NCBI GenBank assembly: GCA_015485355.1
Contig: WFTQ01000090.1
Location: 1-49,432, forward strand
Source of the DNA: a bacterium
GTDB taxonomy: Bacteria > Calditrichota > Calditrichia > RBG-13-44-9 > J042
DNA length: 49,432 nt
Reading direction: 5' to 3'
Shown here: one piece after another, positions 26,286-46,252 of the stretch
Layout of the letters: each line of letters begins with the position of its first letter
How positions within the stretch are numbered: position 1 is the stretch's first letter
The notes under the pieces: generated by a model
Databases searched by the model: none
The model's input: the letters and a program-made list of their open reading frames with translations, nothing else
Told to the model about the DNA's origin: nothing
Position numbers and translations under genes: made by a program

Positions 26286-26743
26286 CCTCCGTCCGACGTC
26301 CGCACAGGATTCATCAAATACCCCGAAAAGTGACGCCAAAGCCCAGGAAAAGGGAACCCTCTGCAGAGGAACCTGGATTTCTTCCCCACAATGCAAGGGG
26401 AAATGAACGGTATGCTGACAAAGGGGAGAAAAAAAGGAGATGAGCACCGCTGCAGCCCTCCGGCCGTGTAACTGACCGGGACAATAATCCCGAAAAAGCG
26501 TTGCCAGCCCACCGAAAAAACCATAGCGCAACAACGCAACATTATGGTATTTGGGTTATAACCCCATTGCCATAATTATGGTAATTCCACCATAATTCCG
26601 CTGTGTGGGTCAGACCATGGGGAAGGGTAGGGGCGATCCCCCAGGCCCTTATTCCAATGCCTAATGGTTTCATGGGGGGAAATCGTTCACAAGTGCCAGT
26701 TTCTGGAACAAAGTTTGCAACCCTCTACCCCCTGGAGGCAAGT
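26286..26743. other. Intergenic region upstream of the sHdr cluster
   Basis: About 460 bases without a gene. The first 250 bases show no named structure; the AT-rich part at 26541-26596 is packed with palindromes and a promoter match, annotated separately. Confidence 0.65.
26541..26596 (+). promoter_or_regulatory. Palindromic operator and promoter upstream of the sHdr cluster
   Basis: Within 56 bases: the perfect 12-nt palindromes GGGTTATAACCC (26553-26564) and CCATAATTATGG (26570-26581), plus two more copies of the half site, ATTATGG at 26541-26547 and CCATAAT at 26590-26596. A promoter match TTGCCA (5/6, 26567-26572) - 18 nt - CATAAT (5/6, 26591-26596) is interleaved with them. A dimeric repressor binding here would block both promoter boxes. 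No regulator gene is seen nearby on either strand, so the factor is unknown; ArsR-type regulators control sHdr genes in other bacteria. Confidence 0.55.
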
Positions 26744-26977
26744 ATGGAATGGGTGGTCAGTCGGAGATTGGATTGTCGCTGGATGTACACCCCGCTGGCG
26801 GTGGTGCATTTACACTTTACTCTTCGGGAATTGCATCCGGGCGAAGTTGTTGAGCTATTGATTAATAACGAAGAAAGTTATGCCGACGTGCACAGCTGGA
26901 GCCGGATGACCGGAAATTCTATTCTGCAGGAACGCCGGAAGGAAAGTCACATGTCTATCCTTGTTCAAAAAACCTGA
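26744..26977 (+). CDS. TusA-like protein lacking the active-site cysteine
   Basis: 77 residues with GGAGG at correct spacing before ATG 26744. It aligns end to end, without gaps, with the true TusA encoded 12 nt further on: LDC at the start, 'VV' in helix 1, 'L.PGEVVELL' against 'LEVGQILEMI', 'SWSRMTGNSIL' against 'AWAKQTGHELL', and '..ILVQKT' against 'FLIKKT'. The sulfur-carrying Cys of the CPxP motif is Thr16 here (YTPLA instead of CPMPV), and the second Pro is Ala; only the upstream Cys11 of 'LDCR' remains. So it cannot act as a normal persulfide carrier. It may be a docking or regulatory paralogue, or a decaying copy. It is too diverged to be a recent duplicate. Confidence 0.75.
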   Translation: MEWVVSRRLDCRWMYTPLAVVHLHFTLRELHPGEVVELLINNEESYADVHSWSRMTGNSILQERRKESHMSILVQKT

Positions 26978-26988
26978 TGGAGGAACCC

Positions 26989-27228
26989 ATGGCCGATATT
27001 CCCATTGCCGAAACCCTGGATTGCAGCGGGCTGTTGTGTCCCATGCCCGTGGTTAAAACCAATAAGGCGATCAAGAATTTAGAGGTGGGGCAAATCCTGG
27101 AAATGATTGCCACCGATCCGGGTTCCATTCCCGATATGAAAGCCTGGGCGAAGCAGACGGGGCATGAGTTGCTGGAAGCCAAGGAAGAGGGGGGAAAATA
27201 TCGCTTTTTAATTAAGAAGACCCATTGA
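26989..27228 (+). CDS. tusA: Sulfur carrier protein TusA
   Basis: 79 residues. 'ETLDCSGLLCPMPVVKTNKA' contains the CPxP motif with persulfide-forming Cys17; 'EVGQILEMIATDPGSIPDM' and 'AWAKQTGHELLEAKEE' are the normal TusA strand and helix. In sulfur oxidisers TusA passes sulfane sulfur between rhodanese/DsrE proteins and the sHdr complex in the cytoplasm. The ATG at 26989 follows GGAGG by 5 nt, and the preceding gene stops 12 nt upstream. Directly followed by dsrE3A, the usual partnership. Confidence 0.93.
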   Translation: MADIPIAETLDCSGLLCPMPVVKTNKAIKNLEVGQILEMIATDPGSIPDMKAWAKQTGHELLEAKEEGGKYRFLIKKTH

Positions 27229-27329
27229 GCAATCCAGGACCAATTCCGGCTGGAAGACTGAGGAAATGGCCTGTATTCCACTATGCCGAGAAAAGTGGGC
27301 AACTACCATCAAACCGAGAGGGGGTCAAT

Positions 27330-27842
27330 ATGTCGGATCAAAACGGGCGTCGTCGTTTAGCCATAATTGCCAGCAAAGGGACGCTGGATTGGGCCTATCC
27401 ACCCTTTATACTCGCCACCGCAGCGGGGGCAATGAATTGGGAGGTGGCCATTTTCTTCACCTTTTATGGATTACCGTTGCTGAAGAAGAGGCTGGATGCA
27501 TCGGTTAGCCCTCTGGGCAATCCGGCTATGCCTATGAAGATGCCCTTCGGGCCTCTGGAAAAAATTGAACTGCCCGTTCCCAATCTTATTATGAGCAATG
27601 TCCCGGGTTTTCAGCAAATGGCCACCGCCTTAATGAAAAAGACATTCAAAAAAAAGGGTGTGGCGACCATCGAGGAACTGCGTCATATGGCCGTGGAAAT
27701 GGATGTGCGCCTGATCGGTTGTCAGATGACCATGGATGTGTTTGGGTTTAAGCGCGAGGATTTCATCGATGAGGCCGAAATCGGGGGAGCGGCCACGTTT
27801 CTGGAATTTGCAGCCGATGCCAATGTGAGTTTGTTTATCTGA
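27330..27842 (+). CDS. dsrE3A: DsrE3A-type sulfurtransferase
   Basis: 170 residues. Begins with 'RRLAIIASKGTLDWAYPPFI' and has 'EVAIFFTFYGLPLL', 'SPLGNPAMPMKMPFGP' and 'RLIGCQMTMDVFGFKREDFI', which is the DsrE3A pattern. The only cysteine, Cys131, is at the expected sulfur-binding position at the start of the second half. These proteins bind sulfane sulfur and exchange it with TusA in organisms using Dsr or sHdr sulfur oxidation. The start follows a GAGAGGGGG stretch; about 100 nt separate it from tusA. Confidence 0.92.
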   Translation: MSDQNGRRRLAIIASKGTLDWAYPPFILATAAGAMNWEVAIFFTFYGLPLLKKRLDASVSPLGNPAMPMKMPFGPLEKIELPVPNLIMSNVPGFQQMATALMKKTFKKKGVATIEELRHMAVEMDVRLIGCQMTMDVFGFKREDFIDEAEIGGAATFLEFAADANVSLFI

Positions 27843-28194
27843 CACCGAACCGTTAGGGTGACCAACGAAACAGAAAGGGGAACCATCGGGAAAATCAACC
27901 AGGGACGGCTATGCGGGGGCGGAGGCCTGTTTTTCAATGTCAACCGATTCGCGCCGGTCCGGCGTGGTATCCCGGGTAGGGTGGAATCCCCCGATGGCTC
28001 CAACCGATTACCCCCCGCGGGTGGTTTCGTTCGTGCCCGGAACCAAGGCCGGGTGGGGGTGAGGAGGGAAAGCGCTTCTTTTGAGATCCCGGTTGGTTGC
28101 CGCGTCGGCCATAGGGAGATGCGGGTATCAAAGACCTTCGGGGTCGCCGGGATAACAACGATCGGCCAATAAAAACAAAAGGTTGACCAGAGTC
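27843..28194. other. Gene-free spacer inside the sHdr cluster
   Basis: About 350 GC-rich bases between dsrE3A and the lipoate ligase. A GTG-initiated frame of about 100 codons exists here, but it lacks family features and has the local GC composition of non-coding sequence, so I do not call it. No terminator with a T tract is seen, so read-through remains possible. Confidence 0.5.
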
Positions 28195-29283
28195 ATGAAA
28201 CAGCCCATTCGCTTGATTGATGCCGGCCGGATTCCGTATCTGGAGTCCCAGACAATTTATCATGCCGTGGCCTATGCCATGACACCCGAAACACCGGACA
28301 CCGCCATTCTGGTGCGTCCGGACACACCATACGTGTGTGTAGGGTTCCATCAGGAAACCGAACGAGAAGTGGATCTGGACTACTGTCGGGAGCATCGAAT
28401 TCCGGTTACCCGCCGTGAGGTTGGTGGAGGAGCCGTATTGCTGGACGATCGTCAGATCTTTACCCAGTGGGTGTTTCACCCGGAGCATGTGCCGATGAAG
28501 GTGGTGGATCGCTTTCGTTGGCACGCGGCACCCATAATGGCCACTTATGGGGATTTCGGTGTGGAAGCCAATTTTCGCCCCATAAACGATATTCATGTGA
28601 AGGGTAAAAAAATTGGGGGTATGGGAGCGGCGGCCATTGGAAATGCCGAGGTGGTAGTCAGTTCTCTTATGCTGGATTTCGATACCCGCACCATGGCCCG
28701 GGTACTGAAGGTGCCCAACGAAAAGTTTCGGGACAAGGTGTTCCAGGGGCTGGAAAATTACATGACGACCCTTGCCCGGGAACTGGGACAGGTCCCCGAT
28801 CCTGAGGAAGTCAAGCGTCGCTATATAGCTCATCTGGAGAAACTATTGCAACGTCCCGTGGAGGAAGGGGAGCTCACCGTGGGGGAGAAAGCTATGCTGT
28901 CGGCGTTGAACGAACGATTCTCCACCCGGGAATGGCTTTTCCAGAAAGGGGGGCTGGTGCGGGACGCCGTAAAAATCCACGCTGGGGTGTGGGTTGGCGA
29001 AACAGCCTATAAGGCCCCCGGAGGACTCATTCGCATTACCTTGCGAATCCGGGAAAATACGATCGATGATCTGGCCATTTCCGGTGACTTTACCTTTTAT
29101 CCCCAGCACCAGCTGGCGGCTTTCGAGGCGCATCTAAGAGGAAAGTCGCTGGAGCCGGCGGCACTGCGAAACACGATCGAACAATTTTATACCGCCGCAA
29201 AAGTACAAACGCCCGGTATCGAGGTCGAACACTGGTTAACCGTGTTCGGACAATTGTTGGATGCCGTTGCAAAGCACAGTTGA
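28195..29283 (+). CDS. Lipoate-protein ligase of the sHdr type, sLpl(AB)
   Basis: 362 residues. Lipoate/biotin ligase fold: 'AILVRPDTPYVCVGFHQE', 'VTRREVGGGAVLLDDRQIFT' (substrate loop), 'INDIHVKGKKIGGMGAAAI' with the expected catalytic Lys about 139; then a fused C-terminal accessory domain (about 230-360, 'GWVWVGETAYK-APGGLIRI'-like), which makes it the bipartite LplA-type rather than the small LipB type. In sHdr clusters this enzyme attaches lipoate or octanoate to LbpA, which is encoded 850 nt downstream. No lipoyl synthase is encoded in the window, so lipoate must be made elsewhere or scavenged. The ATG at 28195 was preferred over TTG 28183; ribosome-site evidence is weak for both. Confidence 0.88.
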   Translation: MKQPIRLIDAGRIPYLESQTIYHAVAYAMTPETPDTAILVRPDTPYVCVGFHQETEREVDLDYCREHRIPVTRREVGGGAVLLDDRQIFTQWVFHPEHVPMKVVDRFRWHAAPIMATYGDFGVEANFRPINDIHVKGKKIGGMGAAAIGNAEVVVSSLMLDFDTRTMARVLKVPNEKFRDKVFQGLENYMTTLARELGQVPDPEEVKRRYIAHLEKLLQRPVEEGELTVGEKAMLSALNERFSTREWLFQKGGLVRDAVKIHAGVWVGETAYKAPGGLIRITLRIRENTIDDLAISGDFTFYPQHQLAAFEAHLRGKSLEPAALRNTIEQFYTAAKVQTPGIEVEHWLTVFGQLLDAVAKHS

Positions 29284-29288
29284 GACCG

Positions 29289-29543
29289 GTGAGCCAATGG
29301 AAAAATAAAATACTGGATTTAACAGAGCTGAGCGAAATGTATGTCGAAAAAGCCGGGCAATGGGTGTTGCTGGAAATTGTGGGATACGATCAGCGGGGCC
29401 AGGCCAATCGGGTGCGTGTGGTGGAAATGGCACCCGATAAAGATGAATTATTGGATTACTTGATGGACCGGGAAGACCAATGGGACTGGAACAAACGATT
29501 TGTCATCGTCCGGGCGGACCCCGGTTTATGCACCCTCATCTGA
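29289..29543 (+). CDS. Small conserved-looking protein of unknown function in the sHdr cluster
   Basis: 84 residues from GTG 29289 (or 87 from TTG 29280, which overlaps the ligase stop). Acidic, soluble, no signal or membrane segment. Two tryptophans (AGQWVLLEIVGYD, DQWDWNKRFVIVRAD) and one Cys near the C-terminus. The start 'LSEMYVEKAGQWVLLEIVGYD' is faintly like DUF5678-type small proteins ('Y..Y.GKWVAL..G.'). Tightly packed after the ligase, which supports a real gene, but no clear Shine-Dalgarno. I do not recognise a family and give no function. Confidence 0.55.
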   Translation: MSQWKNKILDLTELSEMYVEKAGQWVLLEIVGYDQRGQANRVRVVEMAPDKDELLDYLMDREDQWDWNKRFVIVRADPGLCTLI

Positions 29544-29636
29544 TCGGGTTGGAGGAAACCAGTTCCCGAGAAACGACAGGACAGGGAAAGTGGAAATAAA
29601 GCGCAACAGAAACCCAAAATAATTGAGGAAGGCAAG

Positions 29637-30017
29637 ATGGAGGATCTGGAAGGCAAAAAGATTCTGGTCATTCAAACCCACGGGGTGGATACGCCTACCC
29701 GCACCTATTCCCCGGTGTATTATGCCATTGCTGCAGCGGCCATGGAAATGGAGGTGATGATCTGGTTCACCATGAACGGTACCAATCAGTTGCGGAAGGG
29801 AGAGGCGGAAAAAATTGAATTAAAACCCGGTAGCGGGGTTACCCTGAAAACGCTGCTGGATCAGGCCCTGGATGCAGGGGTGCAATTATCGGTCTGTCAA
29901 CAAAGTATGGACTTATGGGACATGAAACCCGAGGATTTGATCGATGGGGTGAAAATTCTGGGGGCTACCAGCATAATCGACCTGGCCCTGGAGGCGGATC
30001 ATGTCATGTATTTTTAA
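29637..30017 (+). CDS. Second DsrE3-family protein (DsrE3B/C-like)
   Basis: 126 residues. DsrE fold: 'KKILVIQTHGVDTPTRTYSP', 'YYAIAAAAMEMEVMIWFTMNG', 'GVQLSVCQQSMDLWDMKPED' and 'GATSIIDLALEADHVMYF'. One cysteine, Cys87, at the sulfur-binding position, preceded by the normal valine. Shorter than DsrE3A in the same cluster and lacking its central Pro/Met-rich insertion. Having two DsrE3 proteins beside TusA and LbpA is usual in sHdr clusters, where one type works with TusA; the subtype here cannot be fixed without a tree. ATG 29637 follows GAGGAAGG. Confidence 0.88.
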   Translation: MEDLEGKKILVIQTHGVDTPTRTYSPVYYAIAAAAMEMEVMIWFTMNGTNQLRKGEAEKIELKPGSGVTLKTLLDQALDAGVQLSVCQQSMDLWDMKPEDLIDGVKILGATSIIDLALEADHVMYF

Positions 30018-30124
30018 CGACATGACCTTTTCTGCCAGGGGAATTCCCCGGCAAGCGGAGGACAGGAGGATGCCGTAGAGAGCCGCCGGGGGGAAGTGAA
30101 TCCGAAAAGTTAAGGAGTTTAATG

Positions 30125-30583
30125 ATGTCAGACGTTGGGATTGTCCGTGGCTGTAAAATTCCCAGAGATTTGTATTATTCCGTGGAGGATCACACCTGGG
30201 TGCGAACGAACGCTGATGGTACGGTCACCGTCGGGATGACGGATGTGGCCCAAAACCTGGCCGGACCCGTGTTGCATGCCAAAGTGAAAAAGGTTGGGTT
30301 GACTCGCGCGAAAGGTAAACCCATTGGTACGGTCGAAAGTGCCAAATGGGTAGGACCCATCAAGACTCCTGTTTCGGGGGAAATCGTCGCCGTGAATGAA
30401 AAACTGGCCGACGATCCCCAGCTCTTGAATCGCGACCCCTACGGGGATGGATGGGTGGTCAAAATGAAACCGACCGATTGGGATGCAGAAGTGAAGGCCC
30501 TGGTTACGGGCGAGGAAGCGGTGCAAAAGTACAAAGAGAAAGTGGAGCGGGAAGATATCAAGGCCTGCGATCACATCGAGTGA
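30125..30583 (+). CDS. lbpA: Lipoate-binding protein LbpA (GcvH-like)
   Basis: 152-153 residues. Homologous to glycine-cleavage H protein: 'VEDHTWVRTNADGTVTVGMT', 'GKPIGTVESAKWVGPIKTPV' with the lipoylated Lys (residue 74 from this start) in the ESAK motif, and 'DPQLLNRDPYGDGWVVKM'. In sHdr systems LbpA is dedicated to sulfur oxidation rather than to glycine cleavage, and no gcvT or gcvP gene is present. Two ATGs are adjacent; 30125 has the better distance to AAGGAG (7 nt). Acts in the cytoplasm as the swinging arm of the sHdr complex; the ligase at 28195 is its presumed modifying enzyme. Confidence 0.94.
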   Translation: MSDVGIVRGCKIPRDLYYSVEDHTWVRTNADGTVTVGMTDVAQNLAGPVLHAKVKKVGLTRAKGKPIGTVESAKWVGPIKTPVSGEIVAVNEKLADDPQLLNRDPYGDGWVVKMKPTDWDAEVKALVTGEEAVQKYKEKVEREDIKACDHIE

Positions 30584-30705
30584 GACTTCGGGCGGACGAA
30601 AGCCGCTCCCTAAGCGAATGCTCCGGAGAGGTGTAGAATCGGCCTTTCGCACAAAGCGTTCCGTAAACCTTGAAGGGCGCCGTTATGTAGCAGAAGGAGA
30701 GGGGT

Positions 30706-31434
30706 ATGAACGTCGATATTAACTCCATGCCGTTGGATTTGACCGGGGGAAAATACCGCGATATTCCCTACGAAGAGAAGGAGCGATTGTTTAATGAAGT
30801 CAAAGCCGACGTGCGCTTTCACGATGTACTTTATGGTTGTTACGAATGTGGGGTATGTGTGGCGGCTTGTCCCTCGGCACGGTTTTACGATTTCAGTCCC
30901 CGCGTCATCGCCCAGGCCGTGGCGCGCGAAGATGTCGAGCTGGTCTACATCCTGATGAACGATAGCATCTGGGATTGTTCCCAATGTTTTTCCTGCGATC
31001 GCTGTCCCCGGGGCAATTCTCCGGGCGGCCTGATCACCTTGATGCGGGAAGTAGCGGTACGAAACGGACTGGAATCCGCAAAGGAAGCTCTGGAAGGCTA
31101 TGGCCGCATTATTTACAAGATTATGTCCACCGGAACCCAGGTTTCCCCGGACATGCTTCAGCCCAACGCCTTTCCGGACTGGGGGCATCACGTCAACGAG
31201 ATTGCCGATAATCTGGATCTATGGCGGCGGGCCCTTCCACCGGAAACCCTTCACACCGTGGAAACCGGATGGAGCGTAAGCGAAAAAACCATCATCGAAC
31301 TGTACCTGATCTGGCACATGACCGGCGTGATGGACATGATTAAAGAAATAGATGAAGGCCTTTTTATGATTTTGCAGGATGTTATGGAAGAAAGGCTGGA
31401 AGATGCCGGCTACGATGTTACCTTCGATGAATAG
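30706..31434 (+). CDS. hdrC1: sHdrC1, iron-sulfur electron-transfer subunit
   Basis: 242 residues. First cluster motif C-x2-C-x2-C-x3-CP at Cys45, 48, 51, 55 ('CYECGVCVAACP'), second at Cys91, 94, 97, 100 ('CSQCFSCDRCPRG', with two rather than three residues before the last Cys, as in sHdrC1 proteins I know). It is a soluble ferredoxin-like subunit that links HdrB1 and HdrA. AGAAGGAGAGG before the ATG gives a strong start. First gene of the core shdrC1-B1-A-H-B3 set. Confidence 0.92.
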   Translation: MNVDINSMPLDLTGGKYRDIPYEEKERLFNEVKADVRFHDVLYGCYECGVCVAACPSARFYDFSPRVIAQAVAREDVELVYILMNDSIWDCSQCFSCDRCPRGNSPGGLITLMREVAVRNGLESAKEALEGYGRIIYKIMSTGTQVSPDMLQPNAFPDWGHHVNEIADNLDLWRRALPPETLHTVETGWSVSEKTIIELYLIWHMTGVMDMIKEIDEGLFMILQDVMEERLEDAGYDVTFDE

Positions 31435-31475
31435 GGGGGCTTTACCCAGGGGAGCAAATGAAAAGGAGAGCCATT

Positions 31476-32681
31476 ATGGGACAGCAGGTCATCCCGGTCG
31501 AGGAATTGATAAAGTCGCAAAAAAAGCCCGGATTTAAATACACTCCGGAAGAAGCGCCCACCGAAGACTATCGGGACATACTGTTTCAGCTGGAAAAGGA
31601 GGGCGAATTGGAAGTGCTGCGGGTTCCGGAGCCGTATGTTGAGGTGACCACCAAGTATGGTCGCAAAAAGAAAATTCCTCTGGAGCACACCTGGCACCAC
31701 AAAAGCTGTGGTCAGTGTGGCCACATTCCGGGGTATTCGACATCCATTTTCTGGTTAAACCGTCAGTTTGGGTTCGATTATGTGGATCCAAGTGACCAAA
31801 CTTCTTGTACGGCATGGAACTACTATGCCTCGGCCACTTCCAACGCCGAGGCGCAAGCCGCCGTTGCGGTTCGCAACTTTGCCGCAGCCGCGGAAACAGG
31901 GCGTTTTCCCCTCATTCACTGTGGGACCAGTTTTGGGCACTATAAAGAAGTACGCCATGAATTGTTGCATCATCATCAGGTGCGTCGCAAAGTGCGAGAG
32001 ATTATGGAGCGCCTGGGTAAGCGATTGGTCTTTCCTGAAGAGATTGTGCATTATAGCGAATGGGTGTATGCGATTCGCGATCGGATAGCCGAGCGGCAGG
32101 TGATCGATATGAGTGCTATTGTGGCATCGGTGCATCCGGCCTGTCACTATCACAAACTGGTGGAAGAGGACGCCATTTATGATCCCGAAATTTATGGGGC
32201 ACAGCGTACCGCCATTGTTACCGGAACCCTCAAAGCTCTGGGAATTCAGATCGGGGAATATTCCAGCTGGTACGACTGTTGCGGTTTTGGTTTCCGCCAT
32301 ATTCTGGTATCCCGGGATTTTTCCCGCTCCTTTGCGGTGCAGCGCAAGATCGAAGTGATGAAGGAGGAGGCCGATCCAGATATTGTGGTCACCCACGACA
32401 CGGGTTGTGTCACCACCCTGGACCAGAGCCAATTTGCCGGGAAGGCCCATGGCAAGAAGGTGGGGATTCCGGTGATGTCCGATTCCCAGATCGCCGCCCT
32501 GGCCATGGGGGCCCATCCCTATAAAGTATTGCAATTGCATTGGCACAATACGGAAAACCGCCCCTTTCTGGAAAAATTGGGGATCGATCCCGAAGAAAAG
32601 TGGCGCGAGTTTGAGGACGCCCTGGAAAAGTTGAAACGTGGAGAGAAACACTATTTAACCTGGGAGGATGCAGATGCCTAA
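31476..32681 (+). CDS. hdrB1: sHdrB1, CCG-domain subunit
   Basis: 401 residues from ATG 31476 (AAGGAG at 31462). Heterodisulfide-reductase B-type protein with two CCG-like halves. The second is canonical: 'VHPACHYHK', 'WYDCCGFGF' and 'THDTGCVTTLD'. The first is modified: 'KSCGQCGHIPGYS', then 'QTSCTAWNYYAS' in place of CCG, and 'LIHCGTSFGHYK' in place of CxxC. So one full non-cubane cluster site is expected, plus one altered site. sHdrB1 is proposed to carry the catalytic sulfur chemistry of the complex. Overlaps the sHdrA start. Confidence 0.92.
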   Translation: MGQQVIPVEELIKSQKKPGFKYTPEEAPTEDYRDILFQLEKEGELEVLRVPEPYVEVTTKYGRKKKIPLEHTWHHKSCGQCGHIPGYSTSIFWLNRQFGFDYVDPSDQTSCTAWNYYASATSNAEAQAAVAVRNFAAAAETGRFPLIHCGTSFGHYKEVRHELLHHHQVRRKVREIMERLGKRLVFPEEIVHYSEWVYAIRDRIAERQVIDMSAIVASVHPACHYHKLVEEDAIYDPEIYGAQRTAIVTGTLKALGIQIGEYSSWYDCCGFGFRHILVSRDFSRSFAVQRKIEVMKEEADPDIVVTHDTGCVTTLDQSQFAGKAHGKKVGIPVMSDSQIAALAMGAHPYKVLQLHWHNTENRPFLEKLGIDPEEKWREFEDALEKLKRGEKHYLTWEDADA

Positions 32682-33738
32682 TCAAGACATTCTGGTTATC
32701 GGTGGAGGTCCTGCGGGACTGGAGGCCGCCCGCTGCATCGGAGATATAGGCTACAAGGCCATCCTGGTGGAAAAACGCGACCGCCTGGGCGGTACCCCGG
32801 ACGAGGCCGGTTATGCGGCCTTGACCCCTGATCTTCGTAACGCCGAAGAAGCGATGTCCGCCATGGTGCAGGCGGTGGAAAACCATCCCAATGTCGACGT
32901 TCGGTTGGGTACCACCGTGGTGGCCGCCGGCGGCAGCGCAGGAAATTTTACCATTACCTTGAAAAATGGCACACACGAAGAAAACCTCAACGTGGGGGCT
33001 GTCATTATTGCCACCGGTTTTCAGCATTTTGATCCCGGTCGCGAAACCCAAAAATACGGCTATTACGAATATGAAGACGTCATCACCCTGGTGGATTGCG
33101 AGAAGATGCTCCGGGCCCACCGGTTTGTGCGACCCTCCGACGGCAAAAAACCAGAGCGGGTTTGCTTCATTCAATGTGTGGGTTCCCGGGATCGACGCAT
33201 CGGCAACGAATATTGCTCTAAAGTCTGCTGCGGTATCGCTTCGAAAGAGGCCATAGAAATCCGCCAACTGGTGCCCGATTGCAAGGTCTTCATCTTCTAC
33301 ATTGATATGCGCATGTATGCCTATTGGGAACCCGACCTGTACTGGAAGGCCCAGGAGGAACACAAAGTGAATTATGTAAAAGGGATTGCCACGGAAATAG
33401 TTAAAAAAGGCGACCGGTTGCTGGTAAAGGGCGAAGACACCACTTTGCGGCGTCCCTTTGAAATTCCCATGGATATTGTCATTTTGTCTGTGGGCATGGA
33501 ACCCAGTCAGGGGACCCGGGAAATGGCCCGAATCTTTGGCCTGAAACAAAATAAGTATCAGTTTATCGAGGCCGTTGGGGCTCCCATGGATACCGTGACC
33601 ACCTCGGTACCCGGGGTGTTCGCTTGCGGGGCCTGCACCGGACCTGCGGATTTAGAGGACGCCATATCCGCGGCGGGATTGGCGGCTATGCGAGCCATTA
33701 AAACCATTCGGCACCATAGCAACAAAAAGGCCAGTTAA
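32674..33738 (+). CDS. hdrA: sHdrA, FAD subunit of the sHdr complex
   Basis: 354 residues, much shorter than methanogen HdrA because the N-terminal cluster domain and ferredoxin domains are missing, as in all sHdrA. FAD/NAD(P) motif 'ILVIGGGPAGLEAARCIGD', second nucleotide motif 'NVGAVIIATGFQHFD', cluster-ligating cysteines 'CFIQCVGSRDRRIGNEYCSKVCCGI', and the closing 'VFACGACTGPADLEDAISAAG'. It carries FAD and a cluster and is the electron hub. ATG 32674 is chosen over 32668 since GGGAGG sits 6 nt before it; the gene overlaps hdrB1 by 8 nt. Confidence 0.93.
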   Translation: MPNQDILVIGGGPAGLEAARCIGDIGYKAILVEKRDRLGGTPDEAGYAALTPDLRNAEEAMSAMVQAVENHPNVDVRLGTTVVAAGGSAGNFTITLKNGTHEENLNVGAVIIATGFQHFDPGRETQKYGYYEYEDVITLVDCEKMLRAHRFVRPSDGKKPERVCFIQCVGSRDRRIGNEYCSKVCCGIASKEAIEIRQLVPDCKVFIFYIDMRMYAYWEPDLYWKAQEEHKVNYVKGIATEIVKKGDRLLVKGEDTTLRRPFEIPMDIVILSVGMEPSQGTREMARIFGLKQNKYQFIEAVGAPMDTVTTSVPGVFACGACTGPADLEDAISAAGLAAMRAIKTIRHHSNKKAS

Positions 33739-33751
33739 GCAGAGGTTGGTG

Positions 33752-34498
33752 ATGTCTCCGCCTGTTGATAAACAATCGGCCAAAGATTTTATGCTGGAAA
33801 CCCTCTCGCGCATAACGGTAGAGGAACTGGAACAAATTCAGGCCGATCTTGACTCCAAGGTAGAACGCATGCAGGCTCATGTGGAAGAGGCCGTTACCGG
33901 GCGGTTCACCCGGCAGTCCCTACAGGGATTGCTGCGCTGTGTGTTCGCCACGCGGCGAAGAGCCAAACGGATTCAAGCCCACTACTCTGCTGAATATTTT
34001 GCCCAACGGATTGCCCGGTTGTTGGAAGAAGACCCGCCCGTGGAGCAGCGCTTTCAGACATTTTTCAACGCCTTCCCGAAAATAGACCCTTCGTTACGGT
34101 ACGATCTGACCAGTGAGATCTTATTCTTTTCCCGCCCGAAGCATTACTGGCTGTGGACCCGCTGGATATGGGACCCTCGTACCCGTACCGGCTCCCTGCC
34201 GCTGGTGTTGATGGAACCCTTGCACCTGGAAGGCCAAACCGAGGGCGAGATTTACCGGAAAGTCGGCGAGGCCATACAAAGTTTGCAAGAGATCGGGCGT
34301 TCCCGGGAAATTCCCTCGTTTCTGCAATCCCCTTTTGGCGTGTACACGTATCTGGCCTGTGTGTATGTGATCTATACCTATACGGTGTTGCGAATGCGCA
34401 TGACCCAGGAATTCAATAAAGTTATGCCCCAATTACCGGAATTTACCCGAAGACTTCTCGGCATTTATAGTTTGGAGGAACACAAACATGCCAGTTGA
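33752..34498 (+). CDS. sHdrH, hypothetical conserved subunit
   Basis: 248 residues, ATG 33752 after AGAGG. In sHdr clusters a protein of this size and of unknown function sits at this position; it has no cofactor motif, no Cys-rich region and is mostly helical with many Arg/Glu. One hydrophobic stretch 'YLACVYVIYTYTVL' (about 210-224) is possible membrane contact or a buried helix. Overlaps the next gene by 11 nt, so it is translationally coupled and likely part of the complex. Assignment rests on position and general character. Confidence 0.8.
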   Translation: MSPPVDKQSAKDFMLETLSRITVEELEQIQADLDSKVERMQAHVEEAVTGRFTRQSLQGLLRCVFATRRRAKRIQAHYSAEYFAQRIARLLEEDPPVEQRFQTFFNAFPKIDPSLRYDLTSEILFFSRPKHYWLWTRWIWDPRTRTGSLPLVLMEPLHLEGQTEGEIYRKVGEAIQSLQEIGRSREIPSFLQSPFGVYTYLACVYVIYTYTVLRMRMTQEFNKVMPQLPEFTRRLLGIYSLEEHKHAS

Positions 34499-35750
34499 TC
34501 CAAAACAAATCCGCGCCAAGGATAAGGTGGTGGTTGACGGGATAGAGCTAACCAGTGATTGGAACCGTATGTTCGATCAGCGTCCCGTGTTCGACTATGA
34601 TGTGGAAGTGTTGGAAAAAATCGCCGGTATTCCCGGAGCCGAGTCCATGGCCTGGTGTTACCAGTGTGCCCAGTGTGTACCGGTATGCCCGGTCAACGAA
34701 GTGGGCGATTATGGGCCGCGGAAGATCTATCGCCGGCTCCAGTTGGGTATCGATCTGATCCCCGATGAGGAACTGTGGAAATGTACCACCTGTATGCATT
34801 GCTTGCGGGTGTGTCCGAAAGACGTGAACATGATCGATATCATGCCCGCCGTCCGGGAAGAAGCGGTGATGGAGGGCCACGTTCCCCCGGAGCTGCAAGA
34901 GGTATTCGAAAATACGTTTGAATACGGCAATCCCCTAGGAGAATCACCCCGAAAACGAGCCGATTGGGCGAAAGATGCGGGCGTGCCCGTACCCCTGATG
35001 AAGGAGAAAAAGAAAGCCGACATTCTGTGGTTTGTCGAGTGCTATCCTTCCTATCACCCGCGGGGCAAAGAGACCAGTGTGGCCCTGGCCAAAGTATTGC
35101 ATGCCCTGGGAGTGGATTTCGGCATTCTGGGAGTGGAAGAAAAATGTAGCTGCGATTCCCAACGCCTGGCCGGAGAACGGGGTTTATTCGAAGAATTTGC
35201 GGAAGAAAACATCAAAACCTTCAGCAAGTATCAATTCAACACCATTCTGGTCACCGATCCGCATGCCTTAAATGCTTTTAAAAAGGAGTATCCGAAATTG
35301 GGTGGGCGGTACCATGTGGTACACTATACCACTTTTCTGGCTCCGTTAATCGACCGACTGGAGTACCGAAATACCCTGAACTACAGAGTCACCTTTCATG
35401 ACCCCTGTTATCTGGGGCGCCATCACGGGGAGTATGATGCACCGCGGCGGATTCTCAACCGGTTGCCGGGCGTGGAACTGGTGGAAATGTGGCGCTGCCG
35501 GCAGAATAGTTTTTGCTGTGGTGGCGGCGGCGGCGGCATGTGGCTGGACGGCTTCATGGCCGATCATGTCAGGGAACGTCTATCGGAAAATCGGGTGCGA
35601 GAAGCCGTCGAAACCGGTGCCCAGGTGTTGGCCGTATGCTGCCCTTACGAAATATCCCGCTTCGAGGATGCCGTCAAATCCACTGGCAACGAAGGCAAGC
35701 TGATGGTGAAAGATATCATCGAACTGGTGGTGGAGGCCATGGGCGCGTGA
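34488..35750 (+). CDS. hdrB3: sHdrB3, fused sHdrC2-sHdrB2 subunit
   Basis: 420 residues. N-terminal HdrC part: two 4Fe-4S motifs 'CYQCAQCVPVCP' and 'CTTCMHCLRVCP'. C-terminal HdrB part with two CCG halves: the first is degraded ('FVECYPSYHPRG', 'EKCSCDSQRLAG', 'VTDPHALN'), the second is canonical ('HDPCYLGRHHGE', 'NSFCCGGGGGGMW', 'VCCPYEISRF'). A single fused protein in place of separate C2 and B2 subunits is the mark of the type II sHdr layout. It is also clearly homologous, over about 240 residues, to the soluble half of the EMO protein encoded at 37870. Start ATG 34488 after GGAGG. Confidence 0.92.
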   Translation: MPVDPKQIRAKDKVVVDGIELTSDWNRMFDQRPVFDYDVEVLEKIAGIPGAESMAWCYQCAQCVPVCPVNEVGDYGPRKIYRRLQLGIDLIPDEELWKCTTCMHCLRVCPKDVNMIDIMPAVREEAVMEGHVPPELQEVFENTFEYGNPLGESPRKRADWAKDAGVPVPLMKEKKKADILWFVECYPSYHPRGKETSVALAKVLHALGVDFGILGVEEKCSCDSQRLAGERGLFEEFAEENIKTFSKYQFNTILVTDPHALNAFKKEYPKLGGRYHVVHYTTFLAPLIDRLEYRNTLNYRVTFHDPCYLGRHHGEYDAPRRILNRLPGVELVEMWRCRQNSFCCGGGGGGMWLDGFMADHVRERLSENRVREAVETGAQVLAVCCPYEISRFEDAVKSTGNEGKLMVKDIIELVVEAMGA

Positions 35751-35917
35751 CCGGAACAACGGCCGTACCGGGGTGAACGCCCCCATGAAAGGAAAACCAT
35801 TTTGGAATCAACGGTCCAAAAGGAAATCTGACCACATCAGTTAAAACCGCCGCTCGGGTTGCGTACTATGAGCCGGAAAAAGACATCAACACAGGCAAAC
35901 AATCGAGGAGGTGCTGT

Positions 35918-36682
35918 ATGCATATCATTGTTCCCCTTCGTCAGGTTCCCGACCTGGTGGAAGACCTGGAAATCGATGCCTCGGGAAAAGATCTGGATCG
36001 GGAATGGCTGAAGTACAAAATGAATGAATTTGATGATCATGCTCTGGAAGAAGCGCTGTTATTGAAGGAAGAGGTTGGGGGTGCTGTTACCGCCGTTGCC
36101 CTGGATGGCGGCGAGGTGGATAAGTTGCTTTTTACCGCCGCCGCGAAGGGAGCGGATAGGCTGGTTAAAGTGCGCGGTGATTTTCCCACGCCGTTGAACA
36201 GCCATGCCATGGCCAGGGCCTTGGCCGGTGCAATCCAGGGCCTGGATTATGATTTAATCCTCACCGGCGTCCAGGCGGTGGATGAACTGGATGGCCAGGT
36301 GGGTGTCCTTCTGGCCCACTATCTGGGTATCCCGCACGTATCGGTGGTGACGGATGTGCAGGTTCACGATGGAAAAGCAGTGGTGCACAAGGAATACGCC
36401 GGCGGAGTGATGGGAGAATTTGATGTCATCCTGCCGGCGGTTCTGGGTATCCAGGCGGCGCGACAAACGCCGCGCTACGCTCCGGTCAGCCGGGTGCGAA
36501 TGGCCATGCGCAAATCCACCATCGAGGAGGTCTCCGCCGAGGCCTCCGCCGAGGGCGCCCCGGATATTCGAAAACTGTTTAAACCCGAAAAAGGTGCCGG
36601 AGCACAAATGCTGGAGGGCTCGCCCGAAGCAGTGGCCGAAAAAATTATACACATATTAAAAGAAAAGGGGATTGTGCAATGA
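35918..36682 (+). CDS. etfB: Electron-transfer flavoprotein beta subunit
   Basis: 254 residues. EtfB/AANH-fold: 'MHIIVPLRQVPDLVEDLEID', 'LDREWLKYKMNEFDDHALEEAL', 'DYDLILTGVQAVDELDGQVG' and 'KEYAGGVMGEFDVILPAVLGIQ'. With EtfA it forms a soluble flavoprotein that accepts electrons from the sHdr complex and gives them to EMO. GAGGAGG before ATG 35918. A 167-nt gap without clear structure separates it from hdrB3; its stop overlaps etfA by ATGA. Confidence 0.95.
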   Translation: MHIIVPLRQVPDLVEDLEIDASGKDLDREWLKYKMNEFDDHALEEALLLKEEVGGAVTAVALDGGEVDKLLFTAAAKGADRLVKVRGDFPTPLNSHAMARALAGAIQGLDYDLILTGVQAVDELDGQVGVLLAHYLGIPHVSVVTDVQVHDGKAVVHKEYAGGVMGEFDVILPAVLGIQAARQTPRYAPVSRVRMAMRKSTIEEVSAEASAEGAPDIRKLFKPEKGAGAQMLEGSPEAVAEKIIHILKEKGIVQ

Positions 36683-37644
36683 GCGATGTATTGGTATTTG
36701 CCGAACATCTCCAGGGCAATTTAACCGATTCCACCTTTGAATTGCTGGGCAAAGGCCGGGAGCTGGCCCAGACCACGGGAGGGCATCTCATCGCCGCCCT
36801 GTTGGGAAAGGGAGTGGAGCCACTGACCGAACAAATGGGTGTGGCCCATAAGGTGGTGATGGTAGAACATCAACAGTTGGCAGCGTTTAATCCGGAGGCC
36901 TACGCAATCGCCCTGAAGGCTGTGGTGCAATCGTTGAATCCCTCCATCATCCTGATCCCTTATACTTCCATGGGCATGGATCTGGCCTCCGCCCTTTCGG
37001 CGGACTTGGGCATTCCTCTGGCCGCCTACGTGTCCGAGGTAAAGATCGAGGATGGAACATTGATGACCGTCAGTCAGATGTACGGCGGAAAGGTAAATGT
37101 AGAGTCTGAATTTTCCGGAAACCCAAAAATCGTCTCCGTGTTGGCGGGGGCCTTTCCGGCCGAGGCCGGGAAAGTAGAGGGAACTCCCGTCATCGAAACG
37201 ATGGAGGCCCCCAACGCATTGGCCAACCTGCGGGTAACTTTTAAACAATGGATTGAACCCGAAGGGGGTGATGTGGACATTACCCAGCAGGATGTATTGG
37301 TCAGCATCGGTCGAGGCATTCAGAGCCAGGAAAACATTCCCATGGTTGAAGAATTGGCCCGGAAATTGGGCGGTGCACTGTCGGCTTCGCGACCCATTAT
37401 TGACAATAAATGGTTGCCCAAAAGTCGTCAGGTGGGGAAATCCGGATTAAAAGTAAAACCCCGATTGTACCTGGCCCTGGGGATTTCGGGGGCCCCGGAG
37501 CACATCGAGGGTATGAAAGACGCTGAGCTCATCATCGCCGTCAATTCGGATCCCAACGCCCCCATTTTTGAATATGCCCATTATGGGGTCGTGGGGGATT
37601 TGTTCGACCTGCTCCCGATCCTCAAAGAAAAATTGGGAGGTTAG
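36679..37644 (+). CDS. etfA: Electron-transfer flavoprotein alpha subunit
   Basis: 321 residues. N-terminal AANH-like domain, C-terminal FAD domain with 'PRLYLALGISGAPEHIEGMK' and 'IIAVNSDPNAPIFEYAHYGV' and 'VGDLFDLLPIL'. The usual GISGAxQH reads GISGAPEH here, a small change near the flavin. Coupled to etfB by a 4-nt overlap. Part of the same transcription unit as EMO, 225 nt downstream, which makes a dedicated Etf for this pathway likely rather than a fatty-acid oxidation Etf. Confidence 0.95.
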   Translation: MSDVLVFAEHLQGNLTDSTFELLGKGRELAQTTGGHLIAALLGKGVEPLTEQMGVAHKVVMVEHQQLAAFNPEAYAIALKAVVQSLNPSIILIPYTSMGMDLASALSADLGIPLAAYVSEVKIEDGTLMTVSQMYGGKVNVESEFSGNPKIVSVLAGAFPAEAGKVEGTPVIETMEAPNALANLRVTFKQWIEPEGGDVDITQQDVLVSIGRGIQSQENIPMVEELARKLGGALSASRPIIDNKWLPKSRQVGKSGLKVKPRLYLALGISGAPEHIEGMKDAELIIAVNSDPNAPIFEYAHYGVVGDLFDLLPILKEKLGG

Positions 37645-37869
37645 GGGTCGCCAAAAGAATAAAAAAGAACCCGACGCCGTGGAAATACCCTGACGGGGAG
37701 AACGGGAAGGCAAGCTCGCTACCGATCGCGCGGTTTTCCGAAAGGCGATGAGGCCGACTGCAGGTGAGTATGACCGGAAGGCTTGGGAGATTCTCAAGCC
37801 GGGTCGGCTTATTCCCGTGCGGGCTTCCAGCCGTTTGCTCCGTGCGCCACACTAAACGGAGGAGCGCCG

Positions 37870-39954
37870 ATGCCTGAATTGATACCCAGCCGAGAGGTTT
37901 TTCGCCATTTCCCCTTCTGGGCCCAGTTTTTGTTTTACCTCACTGCCTTTGCCGGTACAATCATCTTTTTCTACGGGTTTTATTCCCGTATCCGGAAATA
38001 TCGGCAGGGCCGTGCGGACAATCGTTTTGACCATCTGACCCGACGGTTTCTGAATGCCTTGAGCATTGTTTTACGGAACCAAACCCTGTATCGGGGCGAT
38101 GCTTACGCCGGTTTCGCCCATTCCCTGATTCTGTGGGGATTCATCGTACTATTCATCGGAACCGTCATTGTCTTTCTGGATCACGATATCCTGCGGCTCA
38201 TGGGGATGCATTTGCTTCAGGGAACTTTCTACCTGTGGTTTTCTTTAATTCTGGACGTTTTTGGGCTTCTGTTTCTGGTCGGGCTTTTTCTGATGTGGGC
38301 CCGCCGCACCCTGATCATGCCTTACAAACTGGATTATGCCCGTGTGGATCGTGACGAAGACGAATACGACCGTTCGGGATATCTGGCGGATGACGGGTTT
38401 TTCCTGGGTTTGCTGTTCTTTATCGGCGCCACGGGATTTTTGATCGAAGGGTTTCGGATTTACGCCGACCAGCCCCCCTGGGCCGGATGGTCACCGGTGG
38501 GATGGTTAACCGCTCAGTTCTTAAGCCTCATGCGGTTAAGCCCGGCAACGGTGAACTTCTGGCATGCCGCTGCCTGGTGGACCCATGCGGTGGCCGTGAT
38601 GATTTTTCTGGCCTACGTTCCCTTTTCCAAGGCCATGCACATGGTTACCGATTTTGTCAACCTGATGTTTCGGGATAACCGCGTGCCCCGCCGTTTGCCC
38701 GGTGTGAGCGAGACCCAACTGAAAGAGGGGATGGGATATAAAACAATCACCGATTTTACCTGGAAAGAATTGTTGGATCTGGATGCCTGTACCAAGTGCG
38801 GTCGATGCCACGAAGCCTGTCCCGCCCGAAGTGCCGGCCAACCCCTGTCGCCCCGGGATTTGATCCTGGATTTGCGTACTTTCGCCGACGCCACCTTCGG
38901 TACCGGCGAATGGTTTTCTCAGCGAGTGAAAGGATGGAATACCGACCGTGCGGTGATACCCGGAGGAATCATCAAGGCGGAAACATTATGGTCTTGCACC
39001 ACCTGCATGGCCTGTATGGAGAGTTGCCCGGTGGGCATCGAACACCTGCTGTATATTGTACAAATGCGTCGTACCCTGGTCGACGAAGCGACCATGGACG
39101 ATTCCCTCCAGGAAGCCCTGATGAATATTGGCGATTACGGAAATTCTTTTGGTCAGCCGGCGCGGGCCCGCGGGAAATGGTCGCAGGAATTGGACTTTCC
39201 CATTAAAGATGCTCGTAGGGAAGCGGTGGAATATCTCTGGTTTGTGGGCGATTATGCTTCCTTCGACCCGCGCATTCAAGAAAATTCCCGCAGGGTGGCT
39301 CGAATTTTTCATCGATTGGGTATTGATTTCGGCATTCTGTACGAAGGCGAGAAGAATGCCGGAAATGATGTCCGCCGGGTGGGCGAAGAGGGTCTTTACG
39401 AAATGCTTGTCGAAGACAACATGGCTGTTTTGCAACAAGCGAAATTTCAAAAGATTGTTACCACCGATCCTCACTCCTATAACACCTTGAAGAATGAGTA
39501 TTCGGAATTCGGGTTGCAAACCCCCGTTTATCATTACACCCAACTGCTGGCTCGCCTGATCGACGAGGGCCGACTGAGGTTCCAGAAAAAGCTGAATTAT
39601 CAAGTCACGTATCACGATCCCTGTTACCTGGGGCGTTACAATCGGGAAACAGAGGCGCCCCGCAAAATTTTGCGGGCGCTTGGAGTGGAAGTGAAAGAAA
39701 TGCCCCGTTGTGGAACCAATACCTTCTGTTGCGGCGCCGGCGGTGGGCGCATCTGGATGGACGATGCCCATATCAAAGAGCGTCCCAGTGAACAGCGCAT
39801 CAAGGAAGCCCTGACCCTGGGCAAACTGGACTATTTTGTGGTGGCCTGCCCCAAAGATTTTGCCATGTACTCCGATGCCGTGAAAACTTCGGGCAATGAG
39901 GGAAGCATCAAAGTTTGCGACATCATTCAACTGGTAGAGGAAGCGTTGGGGTGA
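37870..39954 (+). CDS. Membrane Etf:menaquinone oxidoreductase (EMO)
   Basis: 694 residues. N-terminal half: five or six hydrophobic helices resembling the NarI/HdrE-type heme b membrane domain ('FWAQFLFYLTAFAGTIIFFY', 'HSLILWGFIVLFIGTVIVFL', 'MIFLAYVPFSKAMHMV'), with several His. Then two 4Fe-4S motifs 'CTKCGRCHEACP' and 'CTTCMACMESCP', then two CCG halves. The first CCG half has lost every ligand ('FVGDYASFDPR', 'EKNAGNDVRRVG', 'TTDPHSYNT'); the second is intact ('HDPCYLGRYNRE', 'NTFCCGAGGGRIW', 'VVACPKDFAMY'). Passes electrons from EtfAB to menaquinone in the cytoplasmic membrane. Start ATG 37870 after GGAGGAG. Last gene of the cluster. Confidence 0.92.
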   Translation: MPELIPSREVFRHFPFWAQFLFYLTAFAGTIIFFYGFYSRIRKYRQGRADNRFDHLTRRFLNALSIVLRNQTLYRGDAYAGFAHSLILWGFIVLFIGTVIVFLDHDILRLMGMHLLQGTFYLWFSLILDVFGLLFLVGLFLMWARRTLIMPYKLDYARVDRDEDEYDRSGYLADDGFFLGLLFFIGATGFLIEGFRIYADQPPWAGWSPVGWLTAQFLSLMRLSPATVNFWHAAAWWTHAVAVMIFLAYVPFSKAMHMVTDFVNLMFRDNRVPRRLPGVSETQLKEGMGYKTITDFTWKELLDLDACTKCGRCHEACPARSAGQPLSPRDLILDLRTFADATFGTGEWFSQRVKGWNTDRAVIPGGIIKAETLWSCTTCMACMESCPVGIEHLLYIVQMRRTLVDEATMDDSLQEALMNIGDYGNSFGQPARARGKWSQELDFPIKDARREAVEYLWFVGDYASFDPRIQENSRRVARIFHRLGIDFGILYEGEKNAGNDVRRVGEEGLYEMLVEDNMAVLQQAKFQKIVTTDPHSYNTLKNEYSEFGLQTPVYHYTQLLARLIDEGRLRFQKKLNYQVTYHDPCYLGRYNRETEAPRKILRALGVEVKEMPRCGTNTFCCGAGGGRIWMDDAHIKERPSEQRIKEALTLGKLDYFVVACPKDFAMYSDAVKTSGNEGSIKVCDIIQLVEEALG

Positions 39955-40351: not shown

Positions 40352-41824
40352 TTAAAGGGGGGCGGATATTTTCTGGCGGGCGATTTCCTGAAACACTTTT
40401 CGATTGGGTTTAACCATGTAATGGGTGTGTACCGGCCAGGGAAGGAAATGGTCTGGTATTTTGAATCGCGGTAAAAATGCCTGAAGCATTCCCCGCAATT
40501 GTTCTGCATCCAGGGGATGGTTGTTGGGCTCCATTTCTAAAAAAGCCACCGGACGGGCGCCGAATTCCGGATGGGAGAGGGGAACAACCAATGCCTGCTT
40601 TACCCCGGGCAGGCGCATCAACATGGCTTCAATTTCTTCCGGATGGATGTTTTCCCCTCCCGATACAAACATGTTATCCTTTCGTCCGATCACTTTCAAA
40701 TACCCATCAATGGTCCAGCGTCCAATATCGCCGGTATGGAACCAGCCCTCTTCATCCACCGGAAGTTGCAACTTTCCGCCGTCCCAGTATCCTTTGAACA
40801 GTGTGGGCCCTTTTACCAGAATTTCCCCGTCGGGGGCGATCTGAACTTCCCGATACGGCAGTGGTCTGCCGGCGGTCAGTAGCCGTTGGAGATTGTCCCC
40901 CGGACGGGTGGTGGTGATTTGGGAGCTCATTTCCGTAGACCCGTAGGTTGTAAACACCGGCAGATGCTGTTCCAGTGCCTTCTGAATGAGATGGGGTGGG
41001 ATAGGACCGCCGCCGACTAAGATACATTTCAGCGACGAGCGAAAACCTTGGGCCGGCAGGCTGTTGACGAAACGTTGCAATTGTGTAGCCACCATGGAAA
41101 CGTGGGTGATTTGAAAAGTTTGGATAATGTCCGGGGTTATCTGGCGGTCTTCCGGCACCACGATGGTGGCGCCGGCCAGAAGGGTGCGAAAGAGGACAGC
41201 CAGGCCCCCTACATGAAATAAGGGCAGGCTGATAAACCAGCGATCACCCGCTTTGAGGGGTATATTCTGATTAGCGCCCCGAGCACTACAATAGTGATTG
41301 GACCAGGTGTGGCAAGCCGCCCGGGGCCGACCCGTGGTCCCCGAGGTGAAGATAAAGGTCAATTCCGGATCCACCTGCATCCAACGACCTTCCGGCAACC
41401 GGTCCGGTGAACCGGAAAATAAACCTTCCAGCTCTATAACCGGCGGGGCGAGACGGTCCGGAAGCCCTCCGATCAGGGATTTTTCCACGATCAGAGCCCC
41501 GGCCTGGACTTGATCCAGGTGAAGCCGAAGATTCTCTCCGGGAAGTTTGGGATTAAGGGGAATGGCAACCATTTCCCCATACCAGCAGGCCATCATCAAA
41601 ACGATGAGTTCCCAACGGTTGGTGGACCAGAAGGCTACCCGCTGGCCCGGCTGTAGTCCCAGTGCGGTCAATTTTCCTGCACCTTGCCGGATGAGACGCC
41701 GGTATTCCTCGTAGGTGATCCGGCGCTCCGGGCTGATTATGGCGGGTACCTCCGGCAATTGCCGGGCCCGATGTTCTAAAATGGGGATCATCCCTGATAC
41801 CTGAGGCTTTAATGCACCCTTCAT
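40352..41824 (-). CDS. menE: o-Succinylbenzoate-CoA ligase
   Basis: 490 residues. Acyl-CoA synthetase/AMP-binding superfamily: 'LTFIFTSGTTGRPRAACHTW' (P-loop), 'VFTTYGSTEMSSQ', 'GWFHTGDIGRWTIDGYL' and 'IGRKDNMFVSGGENIHPEEI'; C-terminal Lys region 'KPNRKVFQEIARQK'. Activates o-succinylbenzoate for MenB. Its ATG overlaps the menC stop (TGATG), so the two are translationally coupled. Last gene of the menaquinone group on the minus strand. Confidence 0.9.
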   Translation of the reverse strand: MKGALKPQVSGMIPILEHRARQLPEVPAIISPERRITYEEYRRLIRQGAGKLTALGLQPGQRVAFWSTNRWELIVLMMACWYGEMVAIPLNPKLPGENLRLHLDQVQAGALIVEKSLIGGLPDRLAPPVIELEGLFSGSPDRLPEGRWMQVDPELTFIFTSGTTGRPRAACHTWSNHYCSARGANQNIPLKAGDRWFISLPLFHVGGLAVLFRTLLAGATIVVPEDRQITPDIIQTFQITHVSMVATQLQRFVNSLPAQGFRSSLKCILVGGGPIPPHLIQKALEQHLPVFTTYGSTEMSSQITTTRPGDNLQRLLTAGRPLPYREVQIAPDGEILVKGPTLFKGYWDGGKLQLPVDEEGWFHTGDIGRWTIDGYLKVIGRKDNMFVSGGENIHPEEIEAMLMRLPGVKQALVVPLSHPEFGARPVAFLEMEPNNHPLDAEQLRGMLQAFLPRFKIPDHFLPWPVHTHYMVKPNRKVFQEIARQKISAPL

Positions 41825-42969: not shown

Positions 42970-43288
42970 GTTCAGACAATCCCGCAATGGATTGGTTTCA
43001 TCGAATTGTTTCCTCCCCGGAGAACCTGCCTCCGATACAATGTTGCCGAGTCGGGCCTGCAGCCATTCCGATGCCCGAAAATTGGGTGCGGATCTCCCAA
43101 AAAGCCGTTCCTTTCTGTGTTTGTGGGTTGGGCAACGGACTTCCCGAATCCTGAAACGGCATTCACCCTGTTAGTGATCGATTGCTCGACCGATCGGTGT
43201 CGGTTGTGCGTCATACTGAAAGGCCCACCGGTATTCAAGACTGTATCAACGTGCGCCCCGGAAAATCAACGGCAATGGTTTCGAAGCG
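42970..43288. other. Intergenic region between menA and menC
   Basis: About 320 bases. A minus-strand nine-codon frame (ATG AAA CCA ATC .. GTC TGA, about 42972-43001) preceded by GGGGAGG is the only item of note; nothing else recognisable. Confidence 0.4.
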
Positions 43289-44200: not shown

Positions 44201-44334
44201 CAGTCTTTTCCGATCGCTTCCTCCCGAAAGGAAATGCCTTCCGGGAGGGATAATTTATGCATTGGGAAGGAATTACCCAACAGTTGGCGAAATATTTTCT
44301 CCATCCGCACAGGGTAGGGGAATCGGTTCGTTCC

Positions 44335-45156: not shown

Positions 45157-45347
45157 GTGATCCTCCTGTAATTACGATGATGTGTCTCGATGCCATGCCT
45201 TTCTCTTGATGGATTTACAAACCCGCTGGATGAACTCCGTGTCTGTTGATTAACCCACCCAGGCTCGGATCCCGATGATGGTTTCCTTTCTGGAGGTACC
45301 TGGGTGTTGTCTTTCAGGTATCCTTGGTGTTGTTGTTCGCCTGGAGG

Positions 45348-46169: not shown

Positions 46170-46252
46170 CTCGCTGGCCTTATTCCTTTTGATCGTATCG
46201 GCTTTCCCGGAGCTCCTTTTCGTCACCCGATACCCCGATTGAATACCGGAGA

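Follow-up and report, generated by a model that had tools for sequence, protein, structure and literature searches.

The window analyzed here, 49,432 bp of a Calditrichota metagenome-assembled genome (MAG) (G000:C90:1-49432; genome of 3.44 Mb in 114 contigs, 98.74% complete), carries at 26744–39954 a gene cluster that is best explained overall, and with good confidence, as a type II sulfur-oxidizing Hdr (sHdr) system: one that oxidizes sulfur held on the lipoate-binding protein LbpA and delivers the electrons to menaquinone, with a reduced set of lipoylation genes and probably under sigma-54 control. Open reading frame (ORF) calls and domain searches define 15 consecutive plus-strand genes, several with few-base overlaps, in the order tusN, tusA, dsrE3A, lpl-a, hyp87, dsrE-b, lbpA, hdrC1, hdrB1, hdrA, hdrH, hdrB3, etfB, etfA, emo. 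A reading made earlier from the letters alone (the sequence-only reading) had described such a cluster, and the genes it named are all present on that strand, in the order and within the coordinates it gave. It listed a single tusA at 26744, where there are in fact two copies in tandem, and it omitted hyp87, which is flanked by the ligase gene and the second DsrE gene, as well as the kinase, regulator and sigma-54-like promoter that adjoin the cluster.

Type II sHdr systems are defined by shdrC1B1AHB3 and etfAB in one syntenic cluster (PMC11582611), and because all elements of this definition are present the cluster is assigned to that type, as the sequence-only reading had done. sHdrC1 (30706–31434) has two 4Fe-4S motifs and HdrC-family matches; sHdrB1 (31458–32681) has a CCG domain and an HdrB-family match. 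They are followed by sHdrA (32668–33738), by sHdrH (33752–34498), which has no Pfam match and occupies the same position in related loci, and by sHdrB3 (34488–35750), a single 420-amino-acid (aa) ORF in which HdrC2 and HdrB2 are fused, with a Fer4 domain and two CCG stretches. The separate hdrC2 and hdrB2 genes of type I were not found at the locus, the fused B3 standing in their place. EtfB (35918–36682; PF01012) and EtfA (36679–37644; PF01012, PF00766 and PDB EtfA matches) lie in the same cluster, and domain and PDB matches likewise bear out the membrane Etf:quinone oxidoreductase that had been claimed with them: EMO (37870–39954) matches the iron-sulfur-binding reductase 9ojn (E 4e-84) and has five hydrophobic segments, two 4Fe-4S motifs and a CCG domain, all conserved in homologues.

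An origin from methanogen-type Hdr, which the earlier reading had named as the finding that would tell against it, is ruled out by the length of HdrA, its best PDB matches and its phylogeny. HdrA matches 6tjr, which we take to be the sHdrA of Hyphomicrobium denitrificans, at 315 bits over its full length, and methanogen HdrA at 175–208 bits. It is 356 aa long, against 643–671 aa for the solved methanogen chains, and so is not of the long methanogen or bifurcating type (∼650 aa with extra domains). In a maximum-likelihood tree, which is unrooted and has 6tjr on a long branch, three methanogen HdrA proteins are split from 6tjr and all the related loci with support of 100/99. Together these analyses support the view that this Calditrichota cluster belongs to type II sHdr-LbpA, a known kind.

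The cluster is not a chance arrangement, since the same gene order recurs in ∼30 independent contigs (HdrB3 identity 59–91%) and all eight cysteines of HdrC1 and all eight of HdrB1 are invariant (30 of 30 homologues). The core cysteines of HdrA (Cys170, Cys183, Cys187 and Cys188) are invariant in 33 of 33 homologues, and the predicted Fe-S cysteines of HdrB3 and EMO are kept almost without exception. The relatives (loci L020–L052) come from Calditrichota, KSB1, Bacteroidota (Saprospiraceae and Cyclobacteriaceae), Planctomycetota and delta/Myxococcota MAGs; gene order is nearly constant across most of them, and the closest belong to the first four of these groups. The closest named relative, the Calditrichota MAG contig JAADJD010000005.1 (L021, of the same genus), has an HdrB3 that is 91% identical, and for HdrC1, HdrB1, HdrA, HdrB3 and EtfB identity to the L020 and L021 homologues is 87–96%. 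These nearest named relatives also confirm the Calditrichota affiliation that had been suggested for the host. In the tree the HdrA of the window falls among those of other Calditrichota (98/92); its grouping with Bacteroidota is less well supported. Calditrichota HdrA proteins fall in two separate lineages, one near Bacteroidota and the other with Myxococcota, which suggests transfer, although the deep branches have modest support.

LbpA (30122–30583; PF01597) has a lipoyl-lysine that aligns with that of E. coli GcvH, and exactly two cysteines, Cys11 and Cys149. A lipoyl-lysine together with N- and C-terminal cysteines, the latter absent from GcvH, is the published signature of LbpA (PMC6067878); the host's own GcvH carries no cysteine. 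In a tree that includes a GcvH-like protein from an Acidithiobacillus ferrooxidans plasmid, LbpA proteins with two cysteines (LbpA-a, the type in the window) separate from those with none (LbpA-b) at 100/99, and GcvH falls on the side of the latter; L042, the sole cysteine-free entry within LbpA-a, is cut at its start. The ligase gene lpl-a (28195–29283) encodes a two-domain Lpl(AB)-like lipoate-protein ligase (PF21948 and PF10437), for which a PDB search gave matches to each of the two subunits of the bipartite ligase 3r07.

The cluster had been called complete, and here the earlier description fails, because a module found in most relatives (LbpA-b, LipS1, a second ligase sLpl, and LipS2) is missing. 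LipS1 is present in 13 of the 17 loci with a full TusA-to-EMO run, usually joined by LbpA-b, the second ligase and LipS2, and the module occupies one of three places: the HdrB3–EtfB gap, the region following EMO or the region preceding TusA. The four loci without LipS1 are L021, L048, L051 and L050, the last on a contig that stops at EMO, after which its close relatives L045 and L046 have the module. In the window the HdrB3–EtfB gap is 167 bp and fully assembled; the same-family locus L020 holds the module at this place, and L021 has the arrangement of the window. Genome-wide searches did not find LipS1. They returned two GCV_H proteins and two LplA/B-type proteins, the second of the latter being a LipB-like ORF beside a dihydrolipoyl-dehydrogenase-like ORF. 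The module's radical SAM protein is absent from G000 and from the same-genus genome G001, and was found by the same search in G003, G020, G021 and G031. A radical SAM protein (L039, 14998–16122) with no NCBIfam match at the limit used, accompanies LipS1 and LipS2 in many relatives.

We infer that LbpA-b, LipS1 and LipS2 have been lost from the genus, which retains LbpA-a and the two-domain ligase that goes with it. Since the module is missing, LbpA is probably matured by the clustered ligase together with a canonical LipA, which is encoded at a distance on C38 (372 bits, cut-off 310).

Immediately upstream of the cluster, and on the same strand, is a two-component system. The Cys-rich PAS sensor histidine kinase (23393–24916; NCBIfam AtoS/ZraS-type kinase matches) has a C-x3-C-x6-C-x2-C motif and one later cysteine in its PAS region. 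Its orthologues in G001 (83% identity), G021 (44%) and G031 (47%) likewise precede the cluster, and the PAS cysteines are conserved in all four kinases complete in that region; for L021, L024, L036, L039, L044 and L050 the sequence covered begins inside the kinase gene, and for L041 and L051 it shows the regulator alone ahead of the cluster. The regulator, an NtrC/AtoC-type sigma-54-dependent response regulator (24885–26285; NCBIfam AtoC 504 bits, under the family cut-off), has counterparts in the same syntenic position in loci of Calditrichota and KSB1, with 57–91% identity.

Between the regulator and tusN lies a sigma-54-like promoter, TGGAACAAAGTTTGCA (26704–26719, plus strand), whose −12 GC precedes the ATG at 26744 by 25 nt; when upstream regions were resampled with a Markov-1 model, just 0.002 of them reached as high a score. 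Equivalents scoring at 0.01 or less occur in L020, L021, L022, L024, L036 and L039, and a scan gave equivalent sites in G021 and G031. No comparable site was seen in the Bacteroidota and Planctomycetota loci, save a weak match in L049. A consensus scan placed another sigma-54-like promoter, TGGCACAATTTCTGCA (23343–23358, plus strand), before the kinase gene, and G001 has a similar site, TGGCATAATTTGTGCA, at the matching place. It is probable that the adjacent kinase and regulator activate the cluster through sigma-54. A precedent exists in Acidithiobacillus caldus, where TspS/TspR control sox through sigma-54 (PMC12194929); for shdr, no report of such control was found in the literature searched. 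At 26540–26600, ∼110–160 bp before the sigma-54 site, there are inverted repeats of the ATTATGG/CCATAAT type, also found in L020 and L021; it is possible that they are binding sites of the adjacent regulator.

The cluster also encodes two TusA-family and two DsrE-family proteins. The first TusA-family gene, tusN (26744–26977; PF01206, 41.4 bits), has a TusA fold in which the active-site cysteine is replaced by Thr, the tandem copies of KSB1 having Glu or Asp there. The canonical tusA follows (26989–27228; PF01206, 97.6 bits; intact LDCSGLLCPMP motif). DsrE3A (27330–27842; PF13686, 173 bits; NF047629, 215.5 bits, above its cut-off) retains its sole cysteine in 23 of 23 homologues, and the second DsrE-family protein, dsrE-b (29637–30017; PF02635/PF13686), retains Cys87 in 27 of 27.

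Candidate donors and acceptors were sought in the rest of the genome. It encodes a type III SQR (655.7 bits, cut-off 525; PDB SQR matches), a CoxB above its cut-off with cox genes alongside, read as an aa3-type oxidase, an ActB/QrcB-C-like protein, read as alternative complex III, and a NapA-like protein under the family cut-off. An ArrA-like molybdoenzyme (G000:C61; L058/L090) scores 1169 bits against a cut-off of 1600 and matches PDB ArrA 6cz7; it has ArrB-like and NrfD-like neighbours and may serve in the respiration of arsenate or some other oxyanion. Thiosulfate, the donor that the sequence-only reading named beside other sulfur compounds, is unsupported: no SoxY was found (in a search without a positive control, so that the absence of Sox is not established), and because SQR is present, sulfane sulfur derived from sulfide is the better-supported source. 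Menaquinone, the acceptor proposed at the same time, is supported by a men gene set (menF-D-H-B-A-C-E) that adjoins the cluster on the opposite strand as a convergent neighbour (40352–49432); menE, menC, menA and menB were identified by Pfam, and menH, menD and menF from ORF translations only. L021 has menE, menC and menA-like ORFs at the same place. Between EMO and menE in L021 (15700–17960), spurious ORF translations repeat IRNPQSEIRN-like stretches, which suggests a repeat array.

The genes and their order, their conservation and that of the cofactor-ligand cysteines and the promoter, the phylogenetic placement and the absence of the module are direct results; the direction of the reaction, its substrate, the lipoylation route and the signal sensed are those we infer from them. 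Sulfide would most likely be oxidized by the type III SQR to provide sulfane sulfur, which would pass by way of the DsrE-family carriers and TusA to the single LbpA, itself charged by the clustered ligase with the LipA encoded elsewhere. sHdr (C1-B1-A-H-B3) would then oxidize the LbpA-bound sulfur to sulfite, and electrons would flow through EtfAB and the membrane-bound EMO to menaquinone and on to the aa3-type oxidase or an anaerobic reductase. The Cys-rich kinase and NtrC-type regulator would activate the cluster from the promoter at 26704.

Several observations weigh against parts of this scheme. AprA was not found in the genome search, and no SoeA-like protein is among the molybdopterin proteins found (NapA-like, ArrA-like, ActB/QrcB-C-like and NuoG), which leaves full oxidation to sulfate unexplained; the genome has only one short MsrP/SoxC-like PF00174 protein. 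The LipA route is only a proposal, because the LbpA proteins described in the literature usually depend on sLpl(AB) with LipS1/S2 for their maturation and were left unmodified by the canonical enzymes tested (PMC6067878, PMC10332631). In L041, L044, L050 and L051 the regulator is present and a sigma-54-like site was not found. Finally, the system could in principle operate in reverse.

This last point underlies an alternative we consider unlikely, namely that the same proteins run reductively or on organosulfur compounds, with menaquinol/Etf electrons reducing sulfur species on LbpA. Gene content leaves the direction unfixed, the NapA-like and ArrA-like enzymes make anaerobic life possible, and hdr-like clusters occur also in organisms that use dimethylsulfide or other volatile organic sulfur compounds (PMC6067878). 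Where tested in vivo, in Hyphomicrobium, sHdr-LbpA systems nevertheless act oxidatively (PMC6067878/PMC10332631), and the SQR and aa3-type oxidase of this genome fit oxidation.

The missing module allows two further explanations. Were it merely in unassembled sequence, as a MAG in 114 contigs might permit, its place in L020 should not appear as the intact, short HdrB3–EtfB gap that is shared with L021; nor does the genome hold a third GCV_H protein, a third ligase or any LipS1, and the extra radical SAM protein is lacking from both genomes of the genus, so that incomplete assembly is quite improbable. Alternatively the cluster may be decaying, loss of the module from the genus having left LbpA unlipoylated and the system idle. 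The absence of the module from the genome and from the same-genus locus would fit such decay, as would the tandem TusA that has lost its cysteine, but the remaining genes are intact, their ligand cysteines invariant and five of their proteins 87–96% identical to those of L020 and L021, a dedicated ligase and LipA are still present, and regulator and promoter are conserved; we regard decay as very improbable. To a more specific proposal we would give somewhat less than an even chance: that nature has done the deletion experiment in this genus, whose type II sHdr works on LbpA-a alone with its own Lpl(AB) ligase and LipA, that the job of the module is separable, and that shdr of Calditrichota and KSB1 is switched on through a thiol-sensing kinase and sigma-54.

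The type II systems previously described (the ‘Group III’ hdr-lbpA clusters of Actinobacteria and Firmicutes) share with this cluster the C1-B1-A-H-B3 order, the fused C2-B2, etfBA within the cluster and an LbpA with two cysteines and the lysine. They differ in having two or three LbpAs rather than one; LipS1/S2 are lacking here, and the cysteine-less TusA, hyp87, the Calditrichota host and the upstream sigma-54 two-component regulator are additional. Type I systems (Hyphomicrobium denitrificans, Thioalkalivibrio) have HdrC1, B1, A, H, LbpA, TusA and DsrE carriers in common with it, and HdrA matches 6tjr, but C2 and B2 are separate genes and, in Hyphomicrobium, the regulators are the ArsR-type repressors sHdrR and SoxR. 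The EtfD-type Etf dehydrogenase 9ojn resembles EMO over two matched stretches in the Fe-S/CCG C-terminal part; it has 1042 aa as against 694, and EMO lies inside an sHdr cluster. A. caldus TspS/TspR (PMC12194929) has the same layout of a two-component NtrC-type regulator beside sulfur-oxidation genes with a sigma-54 promoter, the target being sox there and shdr here.

The kind of system is thus already known; the probable sigma-54 regulation and the trimmed lipoylation set look new. A type II sHdr system is documented here for Calditrichota, and genomes of KSB1, Bacteroidota and Planctomycetota hold its close relatives. The cluster shows that nature can separate the two LbpA types of such systems, which opens to testing the question of what many sHdr systems gain by retaining both. 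It also offers a candidate activator of the pathway, for which the literature searched describes ArsR-type repressors as regulators.

Two proteins of the cluster lack recognizable relatives of known fold. The conserved 87-aa hyp87 (29280–29543) is kept in Calditrichota, KSB1 and Bacteroidota clusters and gives an AlphaFold2 model with a pLDDT of 85, with no Pfam match and no PDB fold relative at E ≤ 0.001. HdrH has a confident all-helical AlphaFold2 model, again with no PDB fold relative at that threshold. A search of plasmids for a type I reference cluster gave only an isolated HdrB1-like gene, accompanied by a GcvH-like gene, on Acidithiobacillus ferrooxidans plasmids. One of these, pACF1 (L093, 44 kb), has an HdrB1-like gene (52% identity) with no other hdr genes annotated nearby, and its GcvH-like protein carries N- and C-terminal cysteines.

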